Of a stretch of 36,203 nt of DNA, positions 4,147-22,953 are shown piece by piece (the first letter of the stretch is position 1; each line of letters begins with the position of its first letter). This DNA comes from an uncultured Alphaproteobacteria bacterium (GTDB lineage: Bacteria; Pseudomonadota; Alphaproteobacteria; Rhizobiales; Aestuariivirgaceae): NCBI GenBank assembly GCA_937873445.1, contig CALMWF010000005.1, forward strand, positions 1 through 36,203. Direction: 5' to 3'. The translations under genes and the position numbers were made by a program. The notes below the pieces were generated by a model. It was not told the origin of the DNA, ran no database searches, and saw only the letters and a list, made by a program, of their open reading frames with translations.

Positions 4147-4297
4147 GGCGGAGCCTCCCTGTTCCGGTGATGATAAATGGTGCGTCGCGGGCAAATGTCA
4201 AAGCCTCAGTGGGGCTGGCGCTTGGGTGGAACTGGCCCTTGTTTCGGGGCCGGGGCGGGGATAGCTAGGCGCAGCCCGATCATCAGGATTTGTGCCC

Positions 4298-5581
4298 ATG
4301 TTGAATGATCCCCGCTCGCACGGATTGTGGGAAAGAACGGCTCCACCCGCCCCCGTCACCCGGCCGCTTGCCGGGGTTGTGAAGGCCGATGTGGCGGTGA
4401 TCGGTGCCGGTTTTACCGGCTGCTCGGCAGCGCTGCATCTGGCGCAGGGTGGCGCCAGGGTGGTGGTGCTGGAAAGGGCCGAGGTGGGCTATGGCGCGGC
4501 GGGGCGCAATGTGGGCCTGGCCAATGCCGGTCTGTGGGTCATGCCACAGGACATCATCAAGGCGCTGGGCGGGGATTACGGCAACCGCATTCTCAACCTG
4601 CTGGGCAACGGCCCGCAGGAGGTATGGGACACCATCGAGAGGCACGGCATTGCCTGCGAGGCGACCCACCGGGGCACGCTCCACCTGGCGCTGGGCAAGG
4701 CCGGTCTCAAGGAACTGGAGGAACGCTCAGCCCAATGGCAGGAACGGGGTGCGCCGGTGCGGCTTCTCGACAAGGCCGAGACGGCGAGCCGCGTCGGCTC
4801 ATCGGCCTATGAGGGAGCCCTTCTCGACATGCGGGCGGGCACGGTGCAGCCGCTGGCCTATGTGCGCGGGCTGGCGCGGGCGGCCATCACCGCGGGGGCT
4901 GTCATCCACACTGCCACGCCGGTCAACCAGGTGGAGGTGGGCGGCAAGGGCTGGCGGCTGGTGACAGCGCAGGGCCAGGTCGAGGCCGACTGGGTGATTG
5001 TGGCCACCGACGCCTATACCACCAGCCCCTTTGCCGAGTTGCGGCTGGAGCAGGTGCATCTGCCCTATTTCAATTTTGCCACCGCCCCCCTTTCCGAGGC
5101 GCAGCGGGTGCGCATTCTGCCGGGGCTGGAGGGCTGCTGGGATACCAAGGAAGTGCTGAACTCCTTCCGCATGGATGCGGCGGGCCGTCTGGTCTTCGGC
5201 AGCGTGGGGGCGCTGCGGGGGCCGGGGGCTGCCATTCACCGCAATTATTCCAGGCGGGCGCTGGCCCGGCTCTTCCCCGACCTCAAGGGCATTGATTTTG
5301 AGTCCGAATGGTATGGCATGATCGGCATGACCAGTGACAACATTCCGCGCTTCCACCGGCTGGGCCATCGGGTCATCTGTTTTTCCGGCTATAATGGCCG
5401 GGGCATCGGCACCGGCACGGTGTTCGGGCGGGTGCTGGCAGAGCATGTGCTGGGCAAGATTGCCGAGACCGATCTGCCGCTGCCGCTGTCACCCGCCACG
5501 GCCATTCGCCGCCGCAGATTGAAGGAACTGTATTACGAGACGGGCGCCCAGGCCGCCCATTTTGTCGATCAACGGATTTGA
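4298..5581 (+). CDS. DAO-family FAD oxidoreductase, probable L-pipecolate oxidase (AmaA-like)
   Basis: 427 residues, the usual length for this family. Near the N-terminus is the dinucleotide-binding motif VAVIGAGFTGCSAALHLAQG with the closing VVVLE. Next comes GAAGRN, typical of the PuuB/AmaA/ordL branch, and the C-terminal FAD-binding motif is FSGYNGRGIGTGTVFGR. Such enzymes oxidise secondary amines or amino acids, for example gamma-glutamylputrescine (PuuB) or L-pipecolate (AmaA). The next gene, 8 nt downstream, is an ALDH7-type aminoadipate-semialdehyde dehydrogenase. The pair therefore favours pipecolate to piperideine-6-carboxylate and on to 2-aminoadipate. PuuB-like activity remains possible because PuuA- and PuuD-like genes occur elsewhere in the window. 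ATG 4298 is chosen over GTG 4292 because AGGA at 4285-4288 is correctly spaced for it. Confidence 0.85.
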   Translation: MLNDPRSHGLWERTAPPAPVTRPLAGVVKADVAVIGAGFTGCSAALHLAQGGARVVVLERAEVGYGAAGRNVGLANAGLWVMPQDIIKALGGDYGNRILNLLGNGPQEVWDTIERHGIACEATHRGTLHLALGKAGLKELEERSAQWQERGAPVRLLDKAETASRVGSSAYEGALLDMRAGTVQPLAYVRGLARAAITAGAVIHTATPVNQVEVGGKGWRLVTAQGQVEADWVIVATDAYTTSPFAELRLEQVHLPYFNFATAPLSEAQRVRILPGLEGCWDTKEVLNSFRMDAAGRLVFGSVGALRGPGAAIHRNYSRRALARLFPDLKGIDFESEWYGMIGMTSDNIPRFHRLGHRVICFSGYNGRGIGTGTVFGRVLAEHVLGKIAETDLPLPLSPATAIRRRRLKELYYETGAQAAHFVDQRI

Positions 5582-5589
5582 GGACAATC

Positions 5590-7116
5590 ATGAGCACTGC
5601 TGCTGAAGTGAGGAAACTGCTGGCCGACATGGGCGTGGACCAGAAGCGCCTGACGCCGGGGGCGCTGTCCTGCCGGTCGGCCGTCACCGGCGAGGAACTG
5701 ATGACGCTGGCCGATGCCGGCACGGCCGAAACGGGACGGGACATTGCCGCAGCCCATGATGCCTATCTTTCCTGGCGGGTGACGCCCGCGCCCAAGCGCG
5801 GCGAGCTGGTTCGTCTGTGGGCGGAGGAATTGCGCGCTCACAAGGACGCGCTGGGCCGTCTCGTCTCGGTGGAGGTGGGCAAGATCACCTCGGAGGGTCT
5901 GGGCGAAGTGCAGGAGATGATCGACATCTGTGACTTTGCCGTGGGCCTGTCGCGCCAGCTCTATGGTCTTACCATCGCCAGCGAGCGCCAGGATCACCGG
6001 ATGATGGAAAGCTGGCACCCGCTGGGCGTGGTGGGCATCATCTCGGCCTTCAATTTTCCGGTGGCGGTGTGGTCGTGGAACACCGCACTGGCCCTGGTCT
6101 GCGGCAATGCGGTGGTGTGGAAACCGTCGGAAAAGGCGGCCCTGTCGGCACTGGCGGCACATGCCCTGCTGGAGCGCGCCGTGGCCCGCTACAACGCTGC
6201 GGACGGCAAGGCGCCGGCGGGCCTGTCCGGACTGGTGGTGGGGGCGCGCGCAGCGGGCGAGGCGCTGGTTCAATCCCATCAGGTGCCGCTGGTCTCGGCC
6301 ACCGGGTCCACCCGCATGGGCCGGGCCGTGGGGCCGAAGGTGGCGGAACGCTTCGGCCGCTCGCTTCTGGAGCTGGGCGGCAACAATGCCGCCATTGTCA
6401 CGCCCTCGGCCGATCTTGATCTCACGGTGCGCGGCGTGGCCTTTGCCGCCATGGGCACGGCGGGCCAGCGCTGCACCACGCTGCGCCGCCTTATTGTGCA
6501 TGAGAGCATTCATGACACGCTGGTGGCCCGGCTGGAGAAGGCCTACGCCTCGGTGAAGGTGGGCAACCCGCTGGAGGACGGCACGCTGGTGGGGCCGCTC
6601 ATCGACAAGGCGGCCTTCGACATGATGCAGAAGGCGCTGGCCGAGGCCAAGGCGGCGGGCGGCAGGGTGCAGGGTGGCGAGCGCGTGATGCTGAACGGCC
6701 TGCCGGAGGGCTATTATGTGCGGCCCGCCCTGGTGGAAATGCCCAAGCAGGTGGGGCCGGTGGTTGAGGAAACCTTCGCGCCCATTCTCTACGTGCTGAA
6801 ATACCGCGATTTCGACGAGGCGCTGGCGCTGCACAATGCGGTGCCGCAGGGCCTGTCGTCGTCGATCTTCACGCTCGACATGCGCGAGGCGGAAACCTTC
6901 CTGTCGGCGCGCGGCTCGGATTGCGGCATTGCCAATGTCAATATCGGCCCGTCGGGGGCGGAAATCGGCGGCGCCTTCGGCGGTGAAAAGGAAACCGGCG
7001 GCGGCCGCGAGTCCGGCTCGGACGCGTGGAAGGCCTATATGCGGCGGGCCACCAACACCATCAATTACGGCACGTCACTGCCGCTGGCCCAGGGGGTGAA
7101 GTTCGACGTGGCCTAG
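5590..7116 (+). CDS. amaB: L-aminoadipate-semialdehyde dehydrogenase, ALDH7 family
   Basis: 508 residues, matching the ALDH7/antiquitin family. Family marks are MESWHPLGVVGIISAFNFPV with VWSWNTALAL, GNAVVWKPSEK for NAD binding, catalytic Glu261 in LELGGNNAA, and nucleophile Cys295 in GTAGQRCTTLRR. The C-terminal SGAEIGGAFGGEKETGGGRE block is also typical. It would oxidise 2-aminoadipate-6-semialdehyde (in equilibrium with piperideine-6-carboxylate) to 2-aminoadipate in lysine catabolism, in the cytoplasm. The gene follows the FAD oxidase by 8 nt with AGGA before its ATG, so the two form an operon. Substrate is inferred from family and neighbour. Confidence 0.9.
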   Translation: MSTAAEVRKLLADMGVDQKRLTPGALSCRSAVTGEELMTLADAGTAETGRDIAAAHDAYLSWRVTPAPKRGELVRLWAEELRAHKDALGRLVSVEVGKITSEGLGEVQEMIDICDFAVGLSRQLYGLTIASERQDHRMMESWHPLGVVGIISAFNFPVAVWSWNTALALVCGNAVVWKPSEKAALSALAAHALLERAVARYNAADGKAPAGLSGLVVGARAAGEALVQSHQVPLVSATGSTRMGRAVGPKVAERFGRSLLELGGNNAAIVTPSADLDLTVRGVAFAAMGTAGQRCTTLRRLIVHESIHDTLVARLEKAYASVKVGNPLEDGTLVGPLIDKAAFDMMQKALAEAKAAGGRVQGGERVMLNGLPEGYYVRPALVEMPKQVGPVVEETFAPILYVLKYRDFDEALALHNAVPQGLSSSIFTLDMREAETFLSARGSDCGIANVNIGPSGAEIGGAFGGEKETGGGRESGSDAWKAYMRRATNTINYGTSLPLAQGVKFDVA

Positions 7117-10006: not shown

Positions 10007-11386
10007 TCACACCGTCCGCAGATACCATTCAAAGTCGCGGGCGATGGGTTCGGCGTAGAAGCGGTCGGCCTCCACTTCCTTCAGCGTGCAATAGGTATCG
10101 ACGAATTCCTTGCCGAAATATTCCTTGAGGATGGAGGCGCGCCAGAAGGCGTCCACCGCGTCATACCAGTTGCCGGGTATGTATTTGGCGCGGCGTTCAT
10201 AGCCGTTGCCCACCACCGGGTTGCCCGGCTCCACCTTTTCGGTGATGCCGTGGTGCATGCCCGCCAGAATGGCCCCCATGACCAGATAGGGATTGGCATC
10301 GGCGCCGGACGGCCGGTGCTCGATGTGGCAGCCCTGGGGCGGGCCCGCGGGAATGCGCAGCGACACGGTGCGGTTGTTGATGCCCCAGCTGGCCGAAACC
10401 GGCGCATAGGAATTGCGCCGGAAGCGCCGGTAGGAATTGGCGTTGGGGGCGAAGATCAGCATGGATTCCGCCATGGCCGCCTTCATGCCGCCGATGGCAT
10501 GGAGCAGCAGTTCATTCTGCATCGGGTCTTCGGCGGCAAACAGGTTGTGGCCCTGTTCATCGGCCAGACTGATGTGAATGTGCATGCCGGAGCCGGTCCA
10601 TTCCGAATAGGGCTTGGCCATGAAGGTGGCGGCCATGCCATGCTGTTCGGCGGTGGCCTTGATCAGGCGCTTCAGCATGATGGCCTCATCGCAGGCCTTC
10701 ACCACATCGGCGCGGTGACGCAGCACGATTTCCATCTGCCCCGGCGCATATTCCGAGATCAGCGTCTTGGCGGGCAGGCCCTGCGCATCGCAATAGGCAT
10801 AGAGATCGCGGAAGAAGGGGCCATAGTCTTCCAGATCCTGCAGGTAATAGGCCTGATAGTGCATGGGCCGCGATTCATTGATGAGCGACTGGGGCGCCTG
10901 CGGCCTGCCCTCAAGGGCCGCCTTGCGATCCATCAGGAAGAATTCCAGTTCCACCGCACCCACCGGCGTCATCTTCAGTTCTTCCTTGAAGCGGGTGACG
11001 ATCTTGTCCAGCGCATTGCGCGGGTCGGCATAGTGGGGGGTGCCGTCCAGCTCATGCACGGTGGTGAGATATTGCGCCGAGGGTTCGGCCGCCCAGGGCA
11101 TGCGCTTCATGGTGCCAGGAATGGGCCACATGAGAAGGTCGCGGTCGCCCTCGTCAAAGACCAGGCCGGTTTCCGGCACGTCCTGGCCGGTCACGTCCAG
11201 CACCAGGGCGGAAATGGGCATGAAGCGGCCATCGCGCCAGGCTGGGGCCACCTCGTCGGCGCGCAGCACCTTGCCGCGGGCCACGCCACACAGATCGGTC
11301 CAGACAAGGTGGAAGGACTGAATATCAGGATTGGCTTCAATGAAGGCGCGCGCTTCGGCATCGCGGTGAGGGAATACGACAGACAT
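10007..11386 (-). CDS. Glutamine synthetase family protein, gamma-glutamylputrescine synthetase-like (PuuA type)
   Basis: 459 residues. The N-terminal beta-grasp portion has VWTDLCGVARGKVLRADE, and the catalytic barrel shows the glutamine synthetase metal and substrate motifs: GAVELEFFLM, ISEYAPGQMEIVLRH, GSGMHIHISL, NSYRRFRRNSYAPVSASWG and HRPSGADANPYL. PuuA-type enzymes use ATP to join the gamma-carboxyl of glutamate to an amine such as putrescine. The ATG at 11386 is preferred because GGAGAGACCC precedes it; an ATG at 11398 is possible. It lies 33 nt downstream of a class III aminotransferase on the same strand, which fits amine catabolism. Substrate cannot be read from the sequence. Confidence 0.88.
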   Translation of the reverse strand: MSVVFPHRDAEARAFIEANPDIQSFHLVWTDLCGVARGKVLRADEVAPAWRDGRFMPISALVLDVTGQDVPETGLVFDEGDRDLLMWPIPGTMKRMPWAAEPSAQYLTTVHELDGTPHYADPRNALDKIVTRFKEELKMTPVGAVELEFFLMDRKAALEGRPQAPQSLINESRPMHYQAYYLQDLEDYGPFFRDLYAYCDAQGLPAKTLISEYAPGQMEIVLRHRADVVKACDEAIMLKRLIKATAEQHGMAATFMAKPYSEWTGSGMHIHISLADEQGHNLFAAEDPMQNELLLHAIGGMKAAMAESMLIFAPNANSYRRFRRNSYAPVSASWGINNRTVSLRIPAGPPQGCHIEHRPSGADANPYLVMGAILAGMHHGITEKVEPGNPVVGNGYERRAKYIPGNWYDAVDAFWRASILKEYFGKEFVDTYCTLKEVEADRFYAEPIARDFEWYLRTV

Positions 11387-11419
11387 GGGTCTCTCCATTC
11401 GTCCGGCCCCGGGGGGCCA

Positions 11420-12817
11420 TCAGCTCTTCAGTTCAGCGACACAACTGTCGAGAGTGGTGAGGAGCCTGTTCACATGAGCCTCGGTCGTGGCGGGACAGAT
11501 GAGCATCATGTTGTGGAAGGGGGTGATGATGACACCGCGATTGAGGAGGTAGTGATGGATGGCCTCATCAAGGGGCTGGTGGATCACCCTGGCCGCCTCA
11601 CCGCCGTTTTTGGGCGGGGTGGCCACGCACATGAACTCCACACGGGCACCCGCGCGGGTCACGTGCCAGGGCAGGCCATGTTTGATGATCACCTGGGCAA
11701 TGCCCTTTTCGAGTTTTTTGGCCAGTGCAATGAGCGGCGCATAGGCCTTGTCGGTGAAATAGTTCTCCAGCACGGCGCGCATCAGCGCCAGCTGGATGCG
11801 TGAGCCGGACAGGGTGGTGCCGATGCCGGAATGGCCGGGGGTGCGGGTTTTGAGGAAATCGTTGACCCGGTCGGCAAAGGCGGCGGACAAGCCATAGACG
11901 GCGGCTGGAATGCCGCCCGCCAGGGGCTTGCCCATCACCAGACCATCGGGTTTCAGGCCATGGGCGCCGGTGTAGCCGCCGGGGCCGGAGGAGATGCAGT
12001 GCGTCTCGTCAAGGATGAGCAGGGTGCCGGTCTTTTCCGTGGCGGCGCGCAGGTGGTCGAGAAAGCCCGGCTGCGGCAGCACCATGCCGACATTGGTCAT
12101 GATGGGTTCGGCCAGCACGCAGGCCACATCCCCGTCCGCAAGGGCGGCATCGAGGGCGGCGGGATCGTTGAACTCCACCACCCTGGTCAGGCTGGTGAGG
12201 TCGCGCACCTCGCCAATGAGGGCCGGATCGGCCACCGGCCTGCCGTTTTCAAGGCTGACGAAGGTTTCATCAACGGCGCCGTGATAGGCATGGTTGAAAA
12301 CCAGGATTTTCCTGCGGCCGGTGACGGCGCGGGCCCAGCGCAGGATGGAGCGGTTGGCGTCCGAGGCGGTGGCCGTCACCTGCCACACCGGCAGGCCGAA
12401 GGCCCTTTCCAGCAGGTCGCCCACCACGGCGGCATCGGGCGAGGGCATCATGGTGGTGAAGCCGTGAGCCCCCTCGCGCTGCAGGGCCGCCACCACCGGC
12501 GGCGGCGAATGGCCGAACATGGCCCCGGTGTCGCCCAGGCAGAAATCAACATAGGCATGGCCGTCGGCGTCGGTGACGTCCACGCCCACGGCGCTGGCCA
12601 CAAAGAGCGGAAAGGGCATGCCCCAGTCCACCATCCAGTGCATGGGCACGCCGCGCAGCCAGTTGCGCGCCGTCCTGCGGGAAAGATCTTCCGATTTCGG
12701 GTTGCGCTGGGTGAAGAAGTGCTCTTCACGCTCCAGCATGGCCTTGATGGCGCTTTCCCCAGGGTTTGCCCCCATGATGCCCTGCATGGTTGTTGTCGTT
12801 GGCCAAGAGTAAGCCAT
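11420..12817 (-). CDS. Class III PLP aminotransferase (GSA-aminomutase-like)
   Basis: 465 residues, fold type I PLP enzyme. Visible motifs are HAYHGAVDE, LILDETHC with Asp270 to hold the pyridine nitrogen, and GLVMGKPLAGGIPAAVYG with Lys297 as the Schiff-base lysine. The set ILDETH followed by GKPLAGG is closest to the glutamate-1-semialdehyde aminomutase-like and aspartate aminotransferase family branch, not to GabT itself. True HemL is unlikely because of the long N-terminus and the catabolic neighbours. It probably transfers an amino group from an omega-amino compound. It forms an operon with the PuuA-like gene downstream. No strong ribosome binding site is seen for this start; the ATG at 12787 is an alternative. 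Confidence 0.85.
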   Translation of the reverse strand: MAYSWPTTTTMQGIMGANPGESAIKAMLEREEHFFTQRNPKSEDLSRRTARNWLRGVPMHWMVDWGMPFPLFVASAVGVDVTDADGHAYVDFCLGDTGAMFGHSPPPVVAALQREGAHGFTTMMPSPDAAVVGDLLERAFGLPVWQVTATASDANRSILRWARAVTGRRKILVFNHAYHGAVDETFVSLENGRPVADPALIGEVRDLTSLTRVVEFNDPAALDAALADGDVACVLAEPIMTNVGMVLPQPGFLDHLRAATEKTGTLLILDETHCISSGPGGYTGAHGLKPDGLVMGKPLAGGIPAAVYGLSAAFADRVNDFLKTRTPGHSGIGTTLSGSRIQLALMRAVLENYFTDKAYAPLIALAKKLEKGIAQVIIKHGLPWHVTRAGARVEFMCVATPPKNGGEAARVIHQPLDEAIHHYLLNRGVIITPFHNMMLICPATTEAHVNRLLTTLDSCVAELKS

Positions 12818-12900: not shown

Positions 12901-13746
12901 ATGTCGCGCATTGTCTTTGTCAACGGCAGTTATGTTCCGGAAGGTGAGGCGAAAATCTCGGTGTTTGACCGGGGGTTCATCTTCGGCGACGGGATTTACG
13001 AAGTGACGGCCGTGGTGGGCGGCAGGCTGGTGGATTTCGACAGCCATATGGAGCGGCTGGACCGGTCGCTGCGCGAGGTCAGGATTGCCCGGCCGGCCAG
13101 CACAGACGCGCTGCGCGCCATGCACATGGAACTGGTGAAGAAAAACAGCCTGAAGGAAGGCTGGATCTATATGCAGGTGACGCGCGGGGCCGCCGACCGC
13201 GACTTCAAGTTCCCGGAAGGGGTGGCCCCCACTCTCATCGCCTTCACCAAGGCGGGGGCGCTGGTGGACAATCCCAATGCGGTTTCCGGCGTTAAGGTGG
13301 TGACGGTGCCGGACATTCGCTGGCTCCGGCGCGACATCAAGACGGTGATGCTGCTGGGTCCGGTGCTGGGCAAGCAGGAGGCCCATGAAAAGGGCGCCTT
13401 TGAAGCGTGGATGGTGGAGGACGGCAAGGTGACGGAGGGCACCTCGTCCAATGCCTATATCGTCAAGGACGGCAAGGTCATCACGCGCGGCCTGTCCAAC
13501 CGCATTCTCGCCGGCTGCACGCGCAAGGCGCTGATGCGGCTGGCCCAGGAGCACAAGGTGACCATTGAGGAGCGGCTGTTCACGCCGGAGGAGGCATATG
13601 CCGCCGACGAGGCCTTCCTCACCAGCGCCACCACCTTTGTCATGCCCATTGTGGAAATTGACGGCAAGCGCATTGGCGGCGGCCAGCCGGGACCGGTGGC
13701 CCGGGCGCTGCGCACATACTATCTCGACGAAGTGGCAAAGGGGTAG
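12901..13746 (+). CDS. D-amino acid aminotransferase, class IV PLP
   Basis: 281 residues, the normal length for D-alanine aminotransferase (Dat). Motifs are FVNGSYVP at the N-terminus, VFDRGFIFGDGIYEV, the Schiff-base Lys147 in RRDIKTVMLLGPVLGKQEA, Glu179 in KVTEGTSSN for the pyridine nitrogen, and FLTSATTFVMPIVEIDG. It would interconvert D-alanine and D-glutamate with their keto acids in the cytoplasm. ATG 12901 follows AGAGGAAGGG. The gene is divergent from the class III aminotransferase across 83 nt and convergent with the GMC gene. A branched-chain activity is possible within class IV but the DRGF-FGDG pattern favours Dat. Confidence 0.9.
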   Translation: MSRIVFVNGSYVPEGEAKISVFDRGFIFGDGIYEVTAVVGGRLVDFDSHMERLDRSLREVRIARPASTDALRAMHMELVKKNSLKEGWIYMQVTRGAADRDFKFPEGVAPTLIAFTKAGALVDNPNAVSGVKVVTVPDIRWLRRDIKTVMLLGPVLGKQEAHEKGAFEAWMVEDGKVTEGTSSNAYIVKDGKVITRGLSNRILAGCTRKALMRLAQEHKVTIEERLFTPEEAYAADEAFLTSATTFVMPIVEIDGKRIGGGQPGPVARALRTYYLDEVAKG

Positions 13747-13787: not shown

Positions 13788-15449
13788 TTAGCGCTGACTC
13801 GTCTCCCAGGCGGGATTGATCCAGGGCACCAGATTTGAGGGCGCAAGGCTGCGGCCGAGAATGTGATCGGAGGCCTTTTCGCCGATCATCAGGGTGGGCG
13901 CATTGAGATTGGCATTGGTCACCTGAGGCATAATGGAACTGTCGGCCACCCGCAGGTTTTCGATGCCGATGACCCGGCATTCGGGATCAACCACCGCCAG
14001 CGGATCATCCTTGGCGCCCATCCGGCAGGTGCCGCAGGGGTGATAGGCGCTTTCGGCGTGTTCGCGGATGAAGGCGTCGATCTGGTCATCACTCTCCACC
14101 CCGGGGCCGGGCTGGATTTCGCCATCGGCATGGGCGGCCATGGCGGGCTGGCGGAACAGTTCGCGCGTCAGGCGCACGCAGCGGCGGAATTCGTCCCAGT
14201 CGTCCGGGTGCGACATGTAATTGAACAGAATGCTCGGCGCCTCGTGCGGGTCTTGGCTGCGGGCGCGGACGAAGCCCCGCGACTTGGACCGCATGGGGCC
14301 GACATGAACCTGAAAGCCATGGCCCTTGAAGGCGGCCCGGCCGTCATAGCGCATGGCGGCGGGCAGGAAGTGATACTGGATGTCGGGGTATTTGATGCCG
14401 GCGCGGGACCGGATGAAGCCGCAGCTTTCAAAGTGATTGGTGGCGCCAAGGCCGGTGCGGAAGAGAAGCCATTCCAGACCGATCAAGCCCTTGGACACGA
14501 GGTTGAGCTTGGAATGGAGCGTGACCGGCTGCTTGGCCCTGATCTGGAAATAGATCTCCATGTGGTCCTGGAGATTTTCGCCGACCCCGACGCGCTCATG
14601 CAGAACGGGAATGCCCGCCGCCCGAAGCACGGAACCGGGGCCGATGCCGGACAACTGCAACAGCTTGGGCGAGTTGATGGCCGAGGCGGCGATGATGACC
14701 TCGCGCCGGGCCCTGGCCATGAGCGGCTCGCCACCCATGTCATATTCCACGCCCACTGCCTTGCGGCCCTCCAGCACGACGCGGCGGGCAAAGGCGTGGG
14801 TGACCAGCTTTACCTTGCCGGTCTTCAGGGCGGGGCGCAGATAGGCATTGGCGGCAGACCAGCGGAAACCGTTGTGCACGGTCATTTCCATATGGCCGAA
14901 ACCTTCCTGCTGGTGGCCATTATAATCGGCGGTGACGGCATAGCCCGCCTCGGCACCGGCCCTGATGAAGGCGTCATAGAGGGGGTTGAGGCGGCGGCCG
15001 CGGGTCACATGCATGGGGCCATCGGTGCCGCGCCAGCCGGCCTCGCCGTCGGCGGCGTGTTCCATGCGTTTGAAGTAGGGCAGCACATGGGCAAAGTCCC
15101 AGCCCGTGGCACCCATTTCGGCCCAGCTGTCAAAATCGCAGGCGTGGCCGCGGACATAGACCATGCCATTGATGGAGGACGAGCCGCCCACCACCTTGCC
15201 GCGCGGGGTGGCCAGCCTGCGGCCGCCAAGGTGCGGTTCCGGCTCGGTCATGAAGCCCCAGTTATAGAGCTTCATGTTCATGGGGTAGGACAGGGCCGAG
15301 GGCATCTGGATGAAGGGGCCGCGGTCGCTGCCGCCATATTCCAGCACCAGAACGGTGTTCTTGCCGTCTTCCGACAGGCGGCGGGCCAGCACGGAACCGG
15401 CAGAGCCTGAGCCCACCACGATGAAATCAAAGACCTGTTCTGCGCTCAT
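13788..15449 (-). CDS. betA: GMC oxidoreductase, probable choline dehydrogenase
   Basis: 553 residues, close to the 550-560 of BetA. The N-terminal FAD motif is [19 protein letters not shown]. Other GMC signatures are [34 protein letters not shown], and HPCGTCRMG with the active-site histidine region, then [23 protein letters not shown]. The C-terminal [15 protein letters not shown] matches the tail I recall for rhizobial BetA. It would oxidise choline to betaine aldehyde at the membrane. No betaine-aldehyde dehydrogenase (betB) or betI sits beside it, so another alcohol substrate is possible. The start overlaps the stop of the RpiR-type gene (ATGA), indicating co-transcription and coupling. 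Confidence 0.85.
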
Positions 15450-16315
15450 GATTTTCCACGCCGGAGCGTCTCATTGATGGTTTCAAGCCGGTGGATGCGC
15501 GCCTGCGTTTCCGGCCAGTTGTGATCAACCACCGCCGCCACCAGGCTTTCCGCCACGAACAGCGGCACCATGTTGGAATCCCAGCTGGACGGCACTTCAA
15601 TGCGCAGTGGCAGGGTCAGTCCGGCAATGCGGGCGATGGGTGACATCCACTGGTCGGTGATGAGCACGACTTCCGCTCCCTCGGCTTTCGCGGAAACGGC
15701 AAAGTCCAGCATGCGCGCGTCATAGCGGCGGACGTCAAAGACCAGCAGCACGTCACCCCTGGAAAGGTTGAGCAGATATTGCGGCCAGGCGGCCTGGGCC
15801 TCGGGCACCAGGTGAACGCCGGGCCTGGCCATGTGCAGGTGGGTGTGGAAATAGTGGGCCACGGCACCGGTGATGCGCCCGCCCATGATGTGGACGGACC
15901 GGCGGCGCGCCCCCAGAAGCCTGGCCACCGCATCAAACACCCGATGGTCCATGAGGCGGAGCGAGGCACGCATATTGTCCATGGCGGCATCGGCAAAGCG
16001 GTTGAGAATATGGGCATCCGGCGCTTCCGCCGCCCAGCGCTCATGCTTGGCGATGGGGTTTTGCAATTGCGCCGACAGTTCGCCGCGCAGGGCTTCCTGC
16101 AGGGCCGGAAAGCCGGAGAAGCCCAGCTTCTTGGCCAGCCGCAGCACCGAAGGCGTGCTGACCCCTGCCAGTCTGGCAAAGTCGGTGATGCTGGAGAGGC
16201 CCGCCACCGGATAGTCAGCAAAGAGAGCAGCCATCAGTTTTTTCTCGGCGGCGGTCAGAACGCCCGCCTTCATGCGCAATTTTTCGGCAACCGTGCTCTG
16301 TCTCTTGGCGCTCAT
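15446..16315 (-). CDS. MurR/RpiR family transcriptional regulator
   Basis: 289 residues in the standard two-domain form. Residues 1-80 form an HTH_6 helix-turn-helix ([13 protein letters not shown], then [36 protein letters not shown]). A C-terminal SIS sugar-phosphate-type sensing domain includes [21 protein letters not shown] and the [15 protein letters not shown] strand. RpiR proteins respond to phosphorylated or small polar metabolites. The gene is divergent from the + strand amidohydrolase/permease operon and overlaps the betA-like gene, so it probably controls both. The start has GGGGGGAAATGGC before the ATG. The effector is unknown. Confidence 0.9.
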
Positions 16316-16350: not shown

Positions 16351-16379
16351 TTGACAGGCATAAGACAATCTGAAATTAT
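16351..16379 (+). promoter_or_regulatory. Sigma70-type promoter of the 16417-22903 operon
   Basis: A perfect -35 TTGACA at 16351-16356 is followed, after 17 nt, by AATTAT at 16374-16379 (4 of 6 matches to TATAAT). The predicted transcript start near 16386 leaves about 30 nt before ATG 16417. It lies in the 101-bp divergent region shared with the RpiR gene. CTGT and ACAG, ten nt apart at 16340-16357, overlap the -35 and could be part of an operator, but that is weak. Confidence 0.65.
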
Positions 16380-16416
16380 CGCTTCAAGCCCGGTGCCAAG
16401 CCGGCGGGGAGGATAG

Positions 16417-17193
16417 ATGGGGACGAGCCTGCTTCGAGAAGAAGAAAGCCCTGCGATTCTGGTCAACGAAACCGGAGCCTCACCCTTTGTCCTGATTTGC
16501 GAACACGCCTCGAACCGTCTGCCTGCAGTGCTGGGCAGCCTTGGCCTTGCGCCGGAGGATATGACGCGCCACATCGCCTGGGACATTGGCGCCGATGCGG
16601 TGGCGCGGCTGTTGTCAGCCCGGCTTGATGCGCCGCTCATCATGCAGCGCTATTCGCGGCTTGCCTATGACTGCAACCGGCCGCCCGAATCGCCCGATGC
16701 CATGCCGGCGCTGAGCGAGATTTTCACCATTCCCGGCAATCAGTCTCTGACGCCTGCGCAGCGGCTGGCACGCATTGAGGAAATCTATCGGCCCTTTCAT
16801 GCCGCGGTGAGCCGCCTGCTCGACCGGCGGGCCGCGCTGGGTCAGGACACGATGGTGGTGTCCATTCACTCCTTCACCCCGGTTTACAAGGGCAAGCGCC
16901 GCACCCTGGAGGTGGGGGTTCTGTTTGACCGCGACGAACGCCTGGGCCGGCGCATACTGACCGGGCTTGCCGGGGTTGATGCCCGGGCCAATGAACCCTA
17001 CGGGCCGCAGGACGGGGTTCTGCATACCTTGAACATCCATGGCGCGGTGCGCGGGCTTGACCATGCCATGATTGAAATCCGCAATGATCTGATCTCGCAG
17101 CCGGAGGGCCAGAAGGCCTGGGCGGGGACAATCGGCGCGGTGTTAGAGCAACTCGTTATGCCGCAATCAAAAACACTGGCGGCGCGCGGGTGA
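16417..17193 (+). CDS. N-formylglutamate amidohydrolase family protein
   Basis: 258 residues. Family motifs are FVLICEHASNRLP near residue 30, DIGADAVARLLSARLDAPLI, YSRLAYDCNRPP, VVSIHSFTPVY, and HGAVRGLDHAMIEIRNDLI with the histidines and glutamate expected to bind zinc. Characterised members (HutG) hydrolyse N-formyl-L-glutamate in histidine degradation, but no hut genes are nearby. First place in an operon with a GS-like ligase suggests it may instead cleave a glutamyl amide; that is inference. ATG 16417 follows GGGGAGGAT. A 70-nt gap separates it from the permease gene. Confidence 0.85.
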   Translation: MGTSLLREEESPAILVNETGASPFVLICEHASNRLPAVLGSLGLAPEDMTRHIAWDIGADAVARLLSARLDAPLIMQRYSRLAYDCNRPPESPDAMPALSEIFTIPGNQSLTPAQRLARIEEIYRPFHAAVSRLLDRRAALGQDTMVVSIHSFTPVYKGKRRTLEVGVLFDRDERLGRRILTGLAGVDARANEPYGPQDGVLHTLNIHGAVRGLDHAMIEIRNDLISQPEGQKAWAGTIGAVLEQLVMPQSKTLAARG

Positions 17194-17263
17194 AGGGGAA
17201 ACGTGATTGACCGACGCCCGCCGGGAGACGGGCAGCAAGAGAAAGGGCCAAGCGGGGTGAAAC

Positions 17264-18841
17264 ATGTCTGCTGAAACCGGTTACACAGAACGAGACAAGA
17301 TGGAGGACGTCAAGGTCCTTCACAGCATGGGCTATGCCCAGGAACTCGAAAGAAGGATGAGCAAGTTCTCGAACTTCGCAATTTCCTTCTCCATCATCTG
17401 CATCCTGTCTGGCGGCATCAACTCGCTGGGCCAGGCAACCTCCGGTGTGGGTGGTGCTGCCATCGGCATCGGCTGGCCGGTGGGCGTGGCGCTGTCCGCC
17501 GTGTTTGCGCTGGCGCTGGCGCAGATTTCCTCGGCCTACCCCACGGCGGGCGGGCTCTATCACTGGGGGTCGATCCTCGGCAACCGCTTCACCGGCTGGC
17601 TGTCGGCCTGGCTCAACCTGCTCGGTCTGGTGACCGTTCTGGGCGCCATCAATGTCGGCACCTGGTATTTCTTCTTTGGTGCCTTCGGCGCGGGCTGGGG
17701 GCTTGAAGACACACTCACCAACCGGGTGTTGTTCGTGGCGGCCATTACCGGCCTGCAGGCGCTCATCAACCACTACGGCATCGGTCTCACCGCTAAGCTC
17801 ACGGATTTTTCCGGCTATCTGATCTTTGCCACGGCCATTGCGCTGACGCTTGCCTGTCTCATCGCCGCGCCTGGCTATGACGTCTCGCGGCTGTGGACCT
17901 TCACCAACTATACCGGCACGGAAGGGGCATCGGGCGTGTGGCCCAATGCGGTGTCCATGGGCATGGCCTTCCTACTCGGCCTGCTGCTGCCGGTCTATAC
18001 CATCACCGGCTATGACGCTTCGGCCCACACGTCGGAAGAAACCGTGAAGGCCGCCACCTCGGTGCCGGAAGGCATGGTGTCATCGGTGTGGTGGTCGGGC
18101 CTGTTCGGCTGGATCATGCTGTGCGCCTTCGTGCTGATGATCCCGAACATGGATGATGCGGCCAAGCAGGGCTAGAACGTGTTCTTCTGGGCCATGGACG
18201 CGCAGATGAACCCGATGGTGAAGATGCTGCTCTATGTGGCGATCTTCATTTCCCAGCTGCTCTGTGGCCTTGCCACGGTGACCAGCGCCTCGCGCATGCT
18301 GTTTGCCTTCTCGCGCGATGACGGCATTCCCTTTGCCTCCAAGGCGCTGGCCAGGGTCAGCCCCGCGCACCGCACGCCGGTGGCCGCCATCTGGTCTTCG
18401 GCCATCCTGTCGGTGCTGTTCGTGTGGTTCACATCGGCCATCACCATTGCCGGCACACCCGCCTATTCCATCGTGGTGTCGTGCACGGTGATCTTCCTGT
18501 TCCTGTCCTTCACGGTTCCCATTGTCCTTGGCCTCATCGCCATCGGCGGGCCAAAGTGGCCGCATATGGGCCCGTGGAGCATGGGTGCCGGCAATTACAA
18601 GATCGTCTCGGTGCTGGTGATCATCGCCATGGCGATCCTGTTCTACATCGGCATTCAGCCGCCCAATGACAAGGCGCTGGAAGTCACAGTTGGCTTCCTA
18701 GTGCTGGCGCTGGTGATCTGGTTTGCCATTGAAAACCGGCGCTTCAAGGGTCCGCCCATCGGCGATGAGATCAAGCGGCGCATGTCCGCCATCCATGCGG
18801 CCGAAAAGGCGGTGGGTGAGAAGGTCAACGTCGAACTGTAA
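17264..18841 (+). pseudogene. APC amino acid/choline-type permease interrupted by an in-frame TAG at 18173-18175
   Basis: Read through, this is a 525-codon transporter of the APC superfamily, amino acid/choline (ACT) branch. It has MGYAQELERRMSKFSNFAISF at the N-terminus, SSAYPTAGGLYHWGS after the second helix, and GYDASAHTSEET after the sixth. The first reading stops after 303 residues (KQG-TAG), and NVFFWAMDAQ continues in the same frame to a natural TAA at 18841. Seven helices precede the break and five follow, the break being in the loop between helices 7 and 8. One G-to-A change from TGG (Trp) would explain it. Downstream codons show no decay, so it is a recent mutation, a base-call error, or read-through. 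GTG 18179 or ATG 18194 could restart a second half. Expected role: import of an amine, amino acid or amino alcohol. Confidence 0.85.
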
Positions 18842-18850
18842 CGGAAATTG

Positions 18851-18895
18851 CGCGGGCGCCTGTCATGGGCGCCCGCGGCGCCCGCGGCGCCCGCG
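18851..18895 (+). repeat. GC-rich hairpin with tandemly triplicated 3' arm
   Basis: CGCGGGCGCC (18851-18860) pairs perfectly over 10 bp with GGCGCCCGCG (18868-18877) across loop TGTCATG. The 3' arm unit GCGCCCGCG is then repeated exactly three times in tandem (18869-18877, 18878-18886, 18887-18895). Any of the three copies can pair with the single 5' arm. It lies in the 84-nt gap between the permease stop and the ribosome binding site of the GS-like gene, where it could slow exonucleases or modulate downstream translation. Confidence 0.75.
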
Positions 18896-18925
18896 GACCA
18901 TCAGGGAAGAAACAAGAGGAATATC

Positions 18926-20299
18926 ATGACCACCGGAATGCTGACGCTGGAACAACTCAGGGCCGAGGTGAAGGCCGGGACCATTGATACGGTCATTGCC
19001 GCCATGGTCGACATGCAGGGCCGCCTCATCGGCAAGCGGTTCCACGCCCAGTTTTTCGTTGACGGCGGTTATGAGGAAACCCACGGCTGCAACTATCTGC
19101 TCGGGGTTGACATCGAAATGGAGCCGGTGCCCGGCTACAAGGCGACCAGCTGGGAAAAGGGCTATGGCGATTTTGTGCTGAAGCCCGACATGGCGACATT
19201 GCGCCGGGTGCCCTGGCTTCAGGCCACCGCACTGGTGCTGTGTGACATTCTCGATCATCACACCCACGAAGATGTGCCGCATTCGCCCCGCGCCATTCTG
19301 AAGAAGCAGCTGAAGCGTCTCGAGGCGATGAAGCTCAAGGCCTATATGGCCTCGGAACTGGAGTTCTTCCTGTTTGACGATTCCTATGAGACCGCCAATG
19401 CCAAGGGCTATCGCGATCTCAAGACCGCCGGTTATTACATTGAGGATTATCACATCCTGCAAACCTCCAAGGAGGAGGGCTATATGCGCGCCCTGCGCAA
19501 TGGTCTGGCGGGGGCTGGCATTCCGGTTGAAAATTCCAAGGGTGAATGGGGACCGGGGCAGGAGGAAATCAACGTCCGCTATGCCGAGGCGCTGGAAATG
19601 GCCGACCGCCATGCCATCATCAAGCATGGCGCCAAGGAAATTGCCTGGGCCCAGGGCAAGAGCGTCTCCTTCATGGCCAAGTGGGACTATGGCATGGCGG
19701 GCAATTCCTCCCACATTCATCAGTCGCTGTGGTCCACCGATAACAAACCGCTGTTCTTCGAGAGGGCGGGCGACCACGGCATGTCCGACATGATGAAGCA
19801 TTATCTGGCCGGGCAACTCGCCCATGCCGGCGAGATCACCTATTTCCTGGCACCCTATATCAACTCCTACAAGCGCTTCATGGCCGGCACCTTTGCGCCG
19901 ACGCGCGCGGTGTGGAGTTTTGACAACCGCACGGCGGGCTTCCGCATCTGCGGCGAACACTCCAAGGCCATTCGCGTTGAATGCCGCATCGGCGGCGCTG
20001 ATCTCAATCCCTATCTGGCGTTTGCGGCGCTGATTGCCGCCGGGCTGGACGGCATTGAAAAGAAGATGGCGCTGGAGCCGGTGGTGTCGGGTGATGTCTA
20101 TGACACGTCACGCAAGCTTCGGGAAATTCCGAAGACGCTGCGCGATGCCACCGAGCTTCTCGACACGTCGAAATTCCTGCGCGGCGTGCTGGGCGACGAG
20201 GTGGTGGACCACTACGTTCACACCGCCAAGTGGGAGCAGTTTGAATTTGACCGCCGCATCACCGATCTCGAACTCAGGCGCGGCTTTGAGAGGTATTGA
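18926..20299 (+). CDS. Glutamine synthetase family ligase (second paralogue)
   Basis: 457 residues. Start ATG 18926 has AGAGGAATATC before it; in-frame codons upstream translate the GC repeat and are rejected. Motifs of the GS fold are AAMVDMQGRLIGKRF, MASELEFFLFDD, GPGQEEINVRYAEALEMADR, GNSSHIHQSLW, NSYKRFMAGTFAPTRAVW, DNRTAGFRICG and CRIGGADLNPYLA. It is clearly different from the PuuA-like protein at 10007 and belongs to the non-adenylylated, catabolic GS-like group that makes gamma-glutamyl amides from amines or amino alcohols. It sits between the permease and the ALDH gene (20-nt gap), so the amine taken up by the permease is its probable substrate. True nitrogen assimilation is less likely. 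Confidence 0.87.
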   Translation: MTTGMLTLEQLRAEVKAGTIDTVIAAMVDMQGRLIGKRFHAQFFVDGGYEETHGCNYLLGVDIEMEPVPGYKATSWEKGYGDFVLKPDMATLRRVPWLQATALVLCDILDHHTHEDVPHSPRAILKKQLKRLEAMKLKAYMASELEFFLFDDSYETANAKGYRDLKTAGYYIEDYHILQTSKEEGYMRALRNGLAGAGIPVENSKGEWGPGQEEINVRYAEALEMADRHAIIKHGAKEIAWAQGKSVSFMAKWDYGMAGNSSHIHQSLWSTDNKPLFFERAGDHGMSDMMKHYLAGQLAHAGEITYFLAPYINSYKRFMAGTFAPTRAVWSFDNRTAGFRICGEHSKAIRVECRIGGADLNPYLAFAALIAAGLDGIEKKMALEPVVSGDVYDTSRKLREIPKTLRDATELLDTSKFLRGVLGDEVVDHYVHTAKWEQFEFDRRITDLELRRGFERY

Positions 20300-20319
20300 G
20301 TTCGTTTCCGAGGATTATC

Positions 20320-21714
20320 ATGGCTGACCATATTTCCTGCATCTCCCCGGTGGATGGCCGGGTCTATGCCAAGCGTGCCGTGGCCACCAAGAAGGCCATC
20401 ACGCAAACCTTCTTCAACGCCGCCGCCGCCCAGGTGGAATGGAAAAACGTTGCCCTGGCCGAGCGGGCGCGCCTGTGTTCCAGGGCGGTGGACGCCATGC
20501 TCGCCATGAAGGACGAGATCGTGCCGGAACTGGCCTGGCAGATGGGCCGTCCGGTGCGCTATGGGGCGGGCGAGCTGCGCGGCTTTGAAGAGCGGGCGCG
20601 CTTCATGATCGGCATTGCCGAAAAGGCGCTGGCACCCATCGTGCCGGAGGCCAAGGAGGGCTTCACCCGCTACATCAAGCGCGAGCCGCTGGGCGTGGTG
20701 TTCACCATTGCGCCGTGGAACTACCCCTATCTCACGGCGGTCAACTCCATTATTCCCGCCATCATGGCGGGCAATACGGTGGTGCTGAAGCATGCTTCGC
20801 ACACCCTCCTGGTGGCCGAGCGTTTCCAGCAGGCCTTTGACAAGGCGGGCCTGCCCAAGGGCGTGTTCCAGCATCTGGTGCTGAACCATGAGCAGACGGC
20901 CCAGATCATTTCCGGCGGCCTTACCAACATGGTGTGCTTCACCGGCTCGGTGGCGGCGGGCCGCGCCATGGAACAGGCGGCGGCGGGCCGCTTCATCAAC
21001 ATGGGGCTGGAACTGGGCGGCAAGGACCCCGCCTATGTGCGCGCCGATGCCGATCTCAACCATGCGGTTGAAAATCTGGTGGACGGCTCGTTCTTCAACT
21101 CCGGCCAGAGCTGCTGCGGCATCGAGCGCATTTATGTGCACAAGTCGCTCTACAAGGATTTCGTGGCGGGCTTCATCGACCTGACGAAGAAATATGTGCT
21201 GGGTTCACCGCTGGATGAGGCGACCACGCTGGGGCCGATGATCAAGGCCGATGCGGCGGGCTTTGTGCGCAAGCAGATTGCCGCGGCGGTGCGGGCCGGA
21301 GCCACGGCCCACATTGACCCCAAGTCCTTCCCCATGGACAAGAAGGGCACGCCCTATATGGCGCCGCAGGTGCTGACCGGTGTGAACCACCAGATGAGCG
21401 TCATGACCGAGGAAAGCTTCGGCCCGGTCATCGGCATCATGAAGGTGTCGGACGATGAGGAAGCCATCAACCTGATGAATGACTCCGCCTATGGGCTGAC
21501 CTGCGCACTGTGGACCAGCGACGAACAGGCCGCCCAGGCCATTGGCGATCGTCTCGCCACCGGCACGGTGTTCATGAACCGCTGCGACTATCTTGATCCG
21601 GCATTGACCTGGACCGGCGTCAAGGACACGGGCCGTGGCGCCACCCTGTCGGTGGTGGGCTATGAGGCGCTGACCCGGCCCAAGAGCTATCATTTGAGGA
21701 CGCGCACGGCGTGA
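20320..21714 (+). CDS. NAD(P)-dependent aldehyde dehydrogenase
   Basis: 464 residues, a full-length ALDH. Motifs are VFTIAPWNYPYLTAVNSIIPA, the cofactor motif FTGSVAAGRAM, catalytic Glu in LELGGKDPAYV, and nucleophile Cys265 in FNSGQSCCGIERIYVH. The MTEESFGPVIGIM block also fits. The double cysteine and ERIYVH place it near the Sad/YneI-like and related semialdehyde dehydrogenases, not ALDH7. In this operon it would oxidise an aldehyde carrying a gamma-glutamyl-amide group. ATG 20320 follows CGAGGATTATC. The neighbours upstream and downstream are the GS-like ligase and the iron alcohol dehydrogenase. Confidence 0.92.
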   Translation: MADHISCISPVDGRVYAKRAVATKKAITQTFFNAAAAQVEWKNVALAERARLCSRAVDAMLAMKDEIVPELAWQMGRPVRYGAGELRGFEERARFMIGIAEKALAPIVPEAKEGFTRYIKREPLGVVFTIAPWNYPYLTAVNSIIPAIMAGNTVVLKHASHTLLVAERFQQAFDKAGLPKGVFQHLVLNHEQTAQIISGGLTNMVCFTGSVAAGRAMEQAAAGRFINMGLELGGKDPAYVRADADLNHAVENLVDGSFFNSGQSCCGIERIYVHKSLYKDFVAGFIDLTKKYVLGSPLDEATTLGPMIKADAAGFVRKQIAAAVRAGATAHIDPKSFPMDKKGTPYMAPQVLTGVNHQMSVMTEESFGPVIGIMKVSDDEEAINLMNDSAYGLTCALWTSDEQAAQAIGDRLATGTVFMNRCDYLDPALTWTGVKDTGRGATLSVVGYEALTRPKSYHLRTRTA

Positions 21715-21742
21715 ACCCGCAACGTGCCATTGGAGATGTGAC

Positions 21743-22903
21743 ATGACCATTCCGAACCGCAATCTGAATTTTCCCACGGCCATCAAATATGGCGCGGGGC
21801 GCATCCGCGAACTGGCGGATTTCTGCCGCGCCTCCGGCATCGAGCGGCCGCTGCTGGTGACCGATCCCGGCCTTGCCGCCATGCCCATGGTGAAGGCCAT
21901 TGTCGAGGACGTGAAGAAGTCGGGCCTTGGCATTGCCGTGTTTGCCGATGTGCGCCCCAATCCGGTGGAGAGCAACATCACTGATGGCGTGCGCGCCTTC
22001 AAGGCCGGCAATCATGATGGTGTCATCGCCTTTGGCGGTGGCTCGGGCCTCGATATCGGCAAGATGATCGCGCTGATGCATGGCCAGTCCATTTCGGTGT
22101 TTGACCTGGAGGACATTGGCGACTGGTGGACGCGGGCCGATGCGTCGAAGATTGCTCCCATCATCGCCGTGCCGACCACGGCGGGCACCGGCTCGGAAGT
22201 GGGCCGCGCCGGTGTGGTGACCCACCCGGACACCCATGAGAAGAAGATCATCTTCCATCCCGCCATCATGCCCAGGGTGTCGATCCTTGATCCGGAACTC
22301 ACCGTGGCGCTGCCCGCCAAGCTTACGGCGGCAACCGGCATGGACGCGCTGTCGCATAATCTCGAAGCCTATTGCGCGCCCTTCTATCATCCGCTGGCCA
22401 AGGGCGTGGCGCTGGAGGGCATGCGCCTCATCAAGGAAAACCTGGTGAAGGCAGTGAAGAAACCCAAGGATCTCGATGCCCGCGGCAACATGCTGGTGGC
22501 CTCTGCCATGGGGGCCACCGCTTTCCAGGCCGGGCTTGGCGCCATGCATGCGCTGGCCCATCCCTTTGGCGGGCTTTATGACGCTCACCACGGCCTGCTG
22601 AACGCCATTCTCATGCCCTATGTGCTGAAGGCCAACCGCAAGAAGATCGAGAAGGACATTGAGCGTGCTGCCGCCTATCTCGGCATCAAGGGCGGCTTCA
22701 ACGGTTTCCTGAAATGGATTCTGGCGCTGCGCAAGGAGATCGGCATTCCGCACAAGCTGTCGGACATCGGCATTGACAGCAAGCGGCTGGACGAGATTGC
22801 GGCCATGGCGGTGAAGGATCCCTCTGCCGGTGGCAATCCCATTCAGTTCAGCGTGAAGCAATACAAGGCGCTGGCCAAGAAGGCGGTTGTCGGCGACCTG
22901 TGA
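21743..22903 (+). CDS. Iron-containing alcohol dehydrogenase
   Basis: 386 residues, group III Fe-ADH. The NAD-binding part has VIAFGGGSGLDIGKMIAL and PTTAGTGSEVGRAGVV. Metal ligands by spacing to FucO are Asp201, His205 (GMDALSHNLEAY), His269 and His283 (GAMHALAHPFGGLYDAHHG). It would oxidise a primary alcohol to the aldehyde used by the preceding ALDH. It is the last gene of the operon; the gap to the ALDH gene is 28 nt and a terminator follows. The alcohol is unknown; an amino alcohol linked to glutamate fits the context. Confidence 0.93.
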   Translation: MTIPNRNLNFPTAIKYGAGRIRELADFCRASGIERPLLVTDPGLAAMPMVKAIVEDVKKSGLGIAVFADVRPNPVESNITDGVRAFKAGNHDGVIAFGGGSGLDIGKMIALMHGQSISVFDLEDIGDWWTRADASKIAPIIAVPTTAGTGSEVGRAGVVTHPDTHEKKIIFHPAIMPRVSILDPELTVALPAKLTAATGMDALSHNLEAYCAPFYHPLAKGVALEGMRLIKENLVKAVKKPKDLDARGNMLVASAMGATAFQAGLGAMHALAHPFGGLYDAHHGLLNAILMPYVLKANRKKIEKDIERAAAYLGIKGGFNGFLKWILALRKEIGIPHKLSDIGIDSKRLDEIAAMAVKDPSAGGNPIQFSVKQYKALAKKAVVGDL

Positions 22904-22926: not shown

Positions 22927-22953
22927 GCCGGGGCGGCAACGCCCCGGCTTTTT
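22927..22953 (+). terminator. Intrinsic terminator after the Fe-ADH gene
   Basis: GCCGGGGC (22927-22934), loop GGCAAC, GCCCCGGC (22941-22948), then TTTTT (22949-22953): a perfect 8-bp GC-rich stem with a U tract. It ends the 16417-22903 operon and its last T belongs to the stop codon of the convergent tspO gene. There is no T tract in the other direction. Confidence 0.9.

Follow-up and report, generated by a model that had tools for sequence, protein, structure and literature searches.

A window of 36,203 nucleotides (contig G000:C5) from the 2.58-Mb draft genome of an uncultured Alphaproteobacteria bacterium of the family Aestuariivirgaceae (completeness 98.15%) was characterized. It carries a locus with genes for an amidohydrolase of the formylglutamate-amidohydrolase family (FGase), a permease, a glutamine synthetase (GS)-like ligase, an aldehyde dehydrogenase (ALDH) and an iron-dependent alcohol dehydrogenase (Fe-ADH). 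This locus is very probably, at a probability of about 0.87, an ethanolamine gamma-glutamylation operon of a type already published. The ethanolamine reading draws on the gene families, their synteny, the exchange of transporters within one slot of the locus, a conserved operator-like site and the lack of a match to EutB; from these we infer the substrate, the order of reactions and the regulation in this organism. The evidence for ethanolamine as the substrate is indirect and comes from several sides.

An initial annotation of this DNA had the families, order, strand and coordinates of the five genes right, but took the permease for a single open reading frame (ORF), where there are two ORFs with a TAG codon between them. 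Neither this stop codon nor the upstream RpiR/GMC gene pair, which probably belongs to the locus, was mentioned there. The features of the locus are as follows.

13788-15449, minus strand: BetA-like GMC oxidoreductase (TIGR01810 betA, 836 bits; cut-off 732.1)
15446-16315, minus strand: divergent RpiR/SIS transcriptional regulator (HTH_6, 55.6 bits; SIS, 69 bits)
16351-16379, plus strand: promoter-like site TTGACA-17-AATTAT (10/12 match, 17-nt spacer)
16371-16386, no strand assigned: putative RpiR operator TGAA-N8-TTCA (motif in 58/64 RpiR/FGase intergenic regions)
16417-17193, plus strand: FGase-family amidohydrolase (PF05013, 154.8 bits); proposed gamma-glutamylglycine amidohydrolase
17264-18841, plus strand: APC-family permease of the TIGR00907 type, interrupted (both halves match PF13520, AA_permease_2, and TIGR00907)
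18926-20299, plus strand: GS-like ligase (PF00120, Gln-synt_C, 339.4 bits); proposed ethanolamine gamma-glutamylase
20320-21714, plus strand: ALDH (PF00171, Aldedh, 402.5 bits), with a possible alternative in-frame TTG start upstream at 20296; proposed gamma-glutamyl-aminoacetaldehyde dehydrogenase
21743-22903, plus strand: Fe-ADH (PF00465, 155.6 bits, and PF25137); proposed gamma-glutamylethanolamide dehydrogenase
22927-22953, plus strand: intrinsic terminator-like hairpin (9 G-C pairs, loop of 4) followed by TTTTT

Ethanolamine is a building block of membrane lipids. In the proposed pathway it would be imported by the permease, and the GS-like ligase would use ATP to join its amine to the gamma-carboxyl group of glutamate. 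The Fe-ADH would then oxidize the alcohol of gamma-glutamylethanolamide to an aldehyde, which the ALDH would convert to gamma-glutamylglycine. Hydrolysis of the latter by the FGase-family enzyme would yield glycine and glutamate, the glutamate thus being returned. RpiR probably keeps the operon repressed by acting at the TGAA-N8-TTCA site, across the -10 element, as long as no inducer is present. The route from ethanolamine through gamma-glutamylethanolamide, the aldehyde and gamma-glutamylglycine to glycine plus glutamate had been put forward in the initial annotation, and is well supported by synteny, by transporter exchanges and by the literature. In the Puu (putrescine) and Ipu (isopropylamine) routes a GS-like ligase likewise masks the amine ahead of oxidation; PuuD belongs to a different hydrolase family, and amine oxidation in Puu is performed by PuuB, not by an Fe-ADH.

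Three published systems resemble the locus. The closest in layout is the operon MED193_10021-10056 of Phaeobacter sp. MED193 (RpiR, GGAH, EtoVWX, ETAGA, GAADDH, GETADH; PMC10132767, Sci Adv 2023), which by locus tag has the same order of regulator, amidohydrolase, transporter, gamma-glutamylase, ALDH and alcohol dehydrogenase. It differs in its transporter, the TRAP system EtoVWX in place of an APC permease, and in that function was measured: levels of the enzymes and of EtoX increase on phosphoethanolamine, and the Kd of EtoX for ethanolamine is 7.9 µM. The available text names no GMC oxidoreductase in that operon, and the window has a GMC gene. The same paper describes the Phaeobacter genes, at second hand, as closely related to those demonstrated in Chromohalobacter salexigens and Agrobacterium tumefaciens C58. 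The C. salexigens set (PMC9397018, Table 2) comprises PF00120, PF00465 ('iron-dependent dehydrogenase'), PF00171 and PF05013 enzymes assigned to the same steps as here, with uptake by a TRAP transporter (Csal_0678, 4UAB) as the difference. In Streptomyces coelicolor (SCO1610-SCO1615), GlnA4 was shown to be a gamma-glutamylethanolamide synthetase (Krysenko et al., 2019; PMC6529630); the later steps proposed there involve a dehydrogenase, an ALDH and finally an enzyme of the formylglutamate-amidohydrolase family acting on gamma-glutamylglycine. The Streptomyces dehydrogenase is named as a short-chain enzyme in a figure legend of PMC6529630 (orf2, taken as SCO1611), and PMC9397018 lists it beside PF00465; the regulator is EpuRI, and the permease gene is missing from S. 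coelicolor.

An FGase-type hydrolase in place of PuuD had been thought new. It is not, as it figures in all three of these papers (PMC6529630; PMC9397018, Table 2; PMC10132767). Since a pathway with a PF05013 enzyme at its last step is already published, the locus would be one more instance of a known pathway, which these findings leave unchanged. They would extend the ethanolamine route published for marine and soil bacteria to a further Hyphomicrobiales lineage, add a third type of transporter between FGase and ligase, and offer a candidate sequence for the operator of RpiR. The locus looks like an ordinary copy except for the stop that breaks its permease gene and for the oxidase gene nearby, which is unusual; the known pathway does not account for the broken permease, for the BetA-like partner or for those operons that lack ALDH.

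Gene set, transporter slot and control region

With the ligase as query, 469 relatives were found in GTDB genomes, and the best 80 were used as loci (given L numbers); as these were chosen by ligase similarity, the sample is biased towards relatives. Loci with more than 15 kb of sequence and about 7 kb on either side of the ligase, 67 of the 80, are called full-flank. The nearest relatives (L004-L017; ligase identity 85–97%) carry titles that include Aestuariivirga litoralis, Aestuariivirga sp. and uncultured Hyphomicrobiales, and loci whose ligase reaches 79% identity or more (L004-L024 and L053) are referred to as Aestuariivirga-type. A less biased, class-wide sample comprised 115 genomes, our own included; 10 of the others have the ligase at E 1e-150 or better.

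The initial annotation made the pathway depend on the genes being kept together in relatives. This holds among the full-flank loci, where FGase accompanies the ligase on its strand in 65, Fe-ADH in 67, ALDH in 56 and all three in 55, and a divergent RpiR gene is found in 59. Class-wide it holds only in part. The whole set is present in two distant genomes, L120 with an Eat-like transporter and L121 with a TRAP transporter, and FGase homologues occur somewhere (E 1e-15) in eight of the 10 ligase-bearing genomes. The full gene set characterizes the nearer relatives and the published operons. In two loci (L058 8450-9323 and L057 8435-9275), two small genes lie between ligase and ALDH; the first gene of the L058 insert weakly matches a phage-associated family, and the second has no family match and looks PIN-type by eye. 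They are possibly a toxin-antitoxin pair.

The slot between FGase and ligase is one source of evidence on the substrate. Among the full-flank loci it holds a permease of the window's type in 33, an Eat-type permease in 12, a TRAP transporter in eight and none of these in 15, L024 carrying two of the three types. The TRAP binding protein of L030 scores 498 bits against 4uab, the next PDB match being at 65.8 bits. 4UAB is Csal_0678 with ethanolamine bound (PMC12410723); ethanolamine is also stated to be the ligand of Csal_0678 in PMC4646407, and is listed among TRAP ligands in PMC5812351. The slot permeases of L029, L063 and L023 score 357–373 bits on the TIGR00908 ethanolamine permease model. 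The operon transporter is present in the window, interrupted and of another subfamily, and the slot in relatives holds transporters of ethanolamine type. A search for EutB (PF06751) gave no match in this 98.15% complete genome, and the control search did find Escherichia coli; the Eut ethanolamine ammonia-lyase pathway was rejected on this ground.

Several observations weigh against an ethanolamine operon of the published type. In the class-wide sample, Fe-ADH lies beside the ligase in eight of the 10 genomes, ALDH in four and FGase in two, and L122 and L123 show the ligase with no partner gene at all. None of the three transporters is present in 14 Aestuariivirga-type full-flank loci and in L081, and in the window the permease gene is interrupted. 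This permease belongs to a subfamily other than that of the TIGR00908 ethanolamine permease, and even the 357–373 bits of the Eat-type proteins fall below the TIGR00908 cut-off of 381.75. As the window permease is of neither Eat nor EtoX type, the evidence that transporters give on the substrate is indirect. The presence of Fe-ADH near the ligase in all 67 full-flank loci and beside it in eight of the 10 distant genomes makes these two genes a firm core.

The TGAA-N8-TTCA site is a likely candidate for the RpiR operator. Against its occurrence in 58 of the 64 RpiR/FGase intergenic regions, 200 block shuffles averaged 0.3 and reached 3 at most. Relatedness makes the sequences non-independent, so this excess does not translate into a probability; the window as a whole contains the motif three times. 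It overlaps the -10 element of the promoter-like site, and repression by RpiR at this position would be the natural reading. The initial annotation had named 'one strong promoter' and 'one terminator'; sites of either kind were no more numerous in the scan than in shuffles. The promoter-like site matches at 10 of 12 positions, and in an alignment of 10 intergenic regions (the window and nine close relatives) TTGACA is identical throughout and the -10 stretch nearly so, which lends the match some weight; yet the one site found over the region is no more than chance would give (mean of 1.4 in shuffles). Similarly, the hairpin at 22927-22953 is the strongest of five terminator-like sites, where shuffles give 5.0.

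The interrupted permease and the choice of substrate

The two permease ORFs, 17264-18175 and 18179-18841, lie in one frame and are split by an in-frame TAG at 18173-18175; the halves fit consecutive parts of PF13520 (94.6 and 63.1 bits). The codon position aligns cleanly in 32 of 34 relatives with a permease gene, none of which has a stop there; the other two (L024 and L072) align poorly, and the segment printed for them contains no stop. A permease search of 31 genomes, our own included, found a match in 12. Of the 13 matched places only that of the window has an internal stop, so near relatives such as L004 have intact copies. The TAG is compatible with either a recent nonsense mutation or an error of assembly. 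Unless it is an assembly error, import through the operon's own permease has probably been lost in this genome.

The stop codon raises the possibility that the operon is a decaying remnant: the permease would be a pseudogene, and this lineage would be losing the pathway. Comparison of the window with L004 gives a ratio of nonsynonymous to synonymous codon differences that is 3.45 times higher for the C half of the permease than for the N half, a value reached by 2 of 465 pairs of relatives. This comparison covered 31 of the 34 relatives (L024, L043 and L072 were excluded beforehand as too divergent), and the stops in the segment of four of them (L080, L059, L045 and L074) are the natural end, at residue 515-523. 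The excess does not lie on the branch of the window: mean C-half changes to the 30 other relatives amount to 63.0 from the window and 61.2 from the intact L004, so that the codon comparison of these 31 relatives reveals no window-specific excess and does not support decay of the permease. In addition, the corresponding ratios to L004 are low for ligase, ALDH and Fe-ADH (0.13–0.18), and the other four frames are open. We consider decay of the operon unlikely. The N half of the permease is up to 84% identical to rhizobial copies; horizontal transfer from rhizobia was set aside, as same-genus copies reach 81–82%.

The same chemistry could also serve another amino alcohol in this genus, such as 1-amino-2-propanol, alaninol or serinol, as the window permease is of neither the Eat nor the EtoX type and Ipu-type ligases act on isopropylamine and alaninol. 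However, 33 of the 67 relatives have a permease of the window's type in this very slot, next to an orthologous ligase and Fe-ADH, and in other relatives the slot holds transporters matching known ethanolamine ones. On chemical grounds, an amino alcohol whose hydroxyl-bearing carbon also carries a methyl group would be oxidized to a ketone, leaving the ALDH without a task. Another amino alcohol as the substrate appears very unlikely.

Enzyme families

The families PF00120, PF00465, PF00171 and PF05013 are clustered in the window, as expected of an ethanolamine gamma-glutamylation operon. The ligase matches PDB entries 11zs (669 bits) and 5dm3 (605 bits), then the next GS at 169 bits. We take 5dm3 to be the C. 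salexigens ligase, and on that assumption the window ligase lies near characterized ligases and away from ordinary GS (605 versus 169 bits). It scores 269 bits on TIGR00653 GlnA, below the cut-off of 429, and 193.7 on NF045547 (gamma-glutamylputrescine synthetase; cut-off 650), by which the Puu putrescine pathway was rejected. The genome has three other PF00120 proteins. The best of these scores 457.7 bits and carries the canonical loop FDGSSISGW and flap GYEAP, where the ligase shows IEMEPVPGY and GTFAP; the comparison was made with this one of the three, the GS-like L095 and L097 being left out. The canonical loop and flap hold the ammonium site and the flap glutamate. That the protein serves only as a back-up ammonia ligase and is clustered by chance, as PF00120 membership and the sub-threshold GlnA match might suggest, is extremely improbable, and was rejected in view of the PDB matches, the canonical PF00120 protein elsewhere in the genome, the differing loop and flap, and the regular company of Fe-ADH.

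The PDB chain closest to the ligase, 11zs, is titled 'Glutamine synthetase, catalytic domain'. In a plasmid search with the ligase, relatives among the 12 matches listed were named 'glutamine synthetase family protein' or unannotated, and the search was not used further.

The FGase-family protein scores 24.5 on TIGR02017, far below the equivalog cut-off of 278.75, and was rejected as a HutG N-formylglutamate deformylase. Its sole PDB match at E 0.01 is 2odf, 'Hypothetical protein Atu2144' (245 bits), to which the FGase of the Agrobacterium genomosp. 13 cluster (L079) is nearly identical (472 bits). This suggests that Atu2144 may hydrolyse gamma-glutamylglycine. Two further PF05013 genes in the genome are distant from the FGase (17.8 and 13.6 bits by phmmer), and the other ALDHs found in the genome share 25–31% identity with that of the locus.

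The BetA-like oxidoreductase and neighbouring genes

The GMC gene, the only TIGR01810 match in the genome, overlaps the RpiR gene by 4 bases, so the two probably form one operon. A GMC gene adjoins 16 of the 67 full-flank loci, exactly the 16 Aestuariivirga-type ones, and the locus lacks ALDH in 10 of these 16, as compared with 1 of the 51 without GMC. In the Aestuariivirga-type loci L005, L006, L008, L010, L011, L013, L018, L019, L021 and L053, Fe-ADH comes after the ligase and no ALDH separates the two. An ALDH probe (E 1e-60) of 12 Aestuariivirga-type genomes gave, for the 10 without ALDH in the locus, no match in five, only 32–34% identity in four, and in L013 a match of 57% identity elsewhere in the genome.

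The GMC protein may serve the pathway. Conceivably it was recruited in the Aestuariivirga-type lineage, co-transcribed with RpiR, to oxidize, much as BetA oxidizes choline, either gamma-glutamylethanolamide or the aldehyde on the way to gamma-glutamylglycine, and so let ALDH be lost in many members; we regard this as distinctly unlikely. Other ALDHs could perform the ALDH step, and other ALDH-superfamily genes occur in all 13 genomes probed, none above the BADH cut-off. An obligatory replacement of ALDH by GMC was rejected, the 16 loci being one clade. It is further weakened by the distant genomes L125 (a contig of only 8.4 kb), L127, L128 and L129, in which ligase and Fe-ADH adjoin with no ALDH between and no GMC hit in the stretch.

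Further upstream, the window carries on the minus strand a second GS-like ligase (10007-11398) and a PRK07046-type transaminase (11420-12817), and on the plus strand a class IV aminotransferase (about 12904-13746) that scores above the PRK06680 D-amino-acid transaminase cut-off. Several relatives also have a GS-like gene and this aminotransferase in the upstream region. At 4292-7116, an L-pipecolate-oxidase-like gene (434 bits, cut-off 600) is followed by an L-piperidine-6-carboxylate dehydrogenase gene (815 bits, cut-off 730), a pair that probably functions in lysine degradation.

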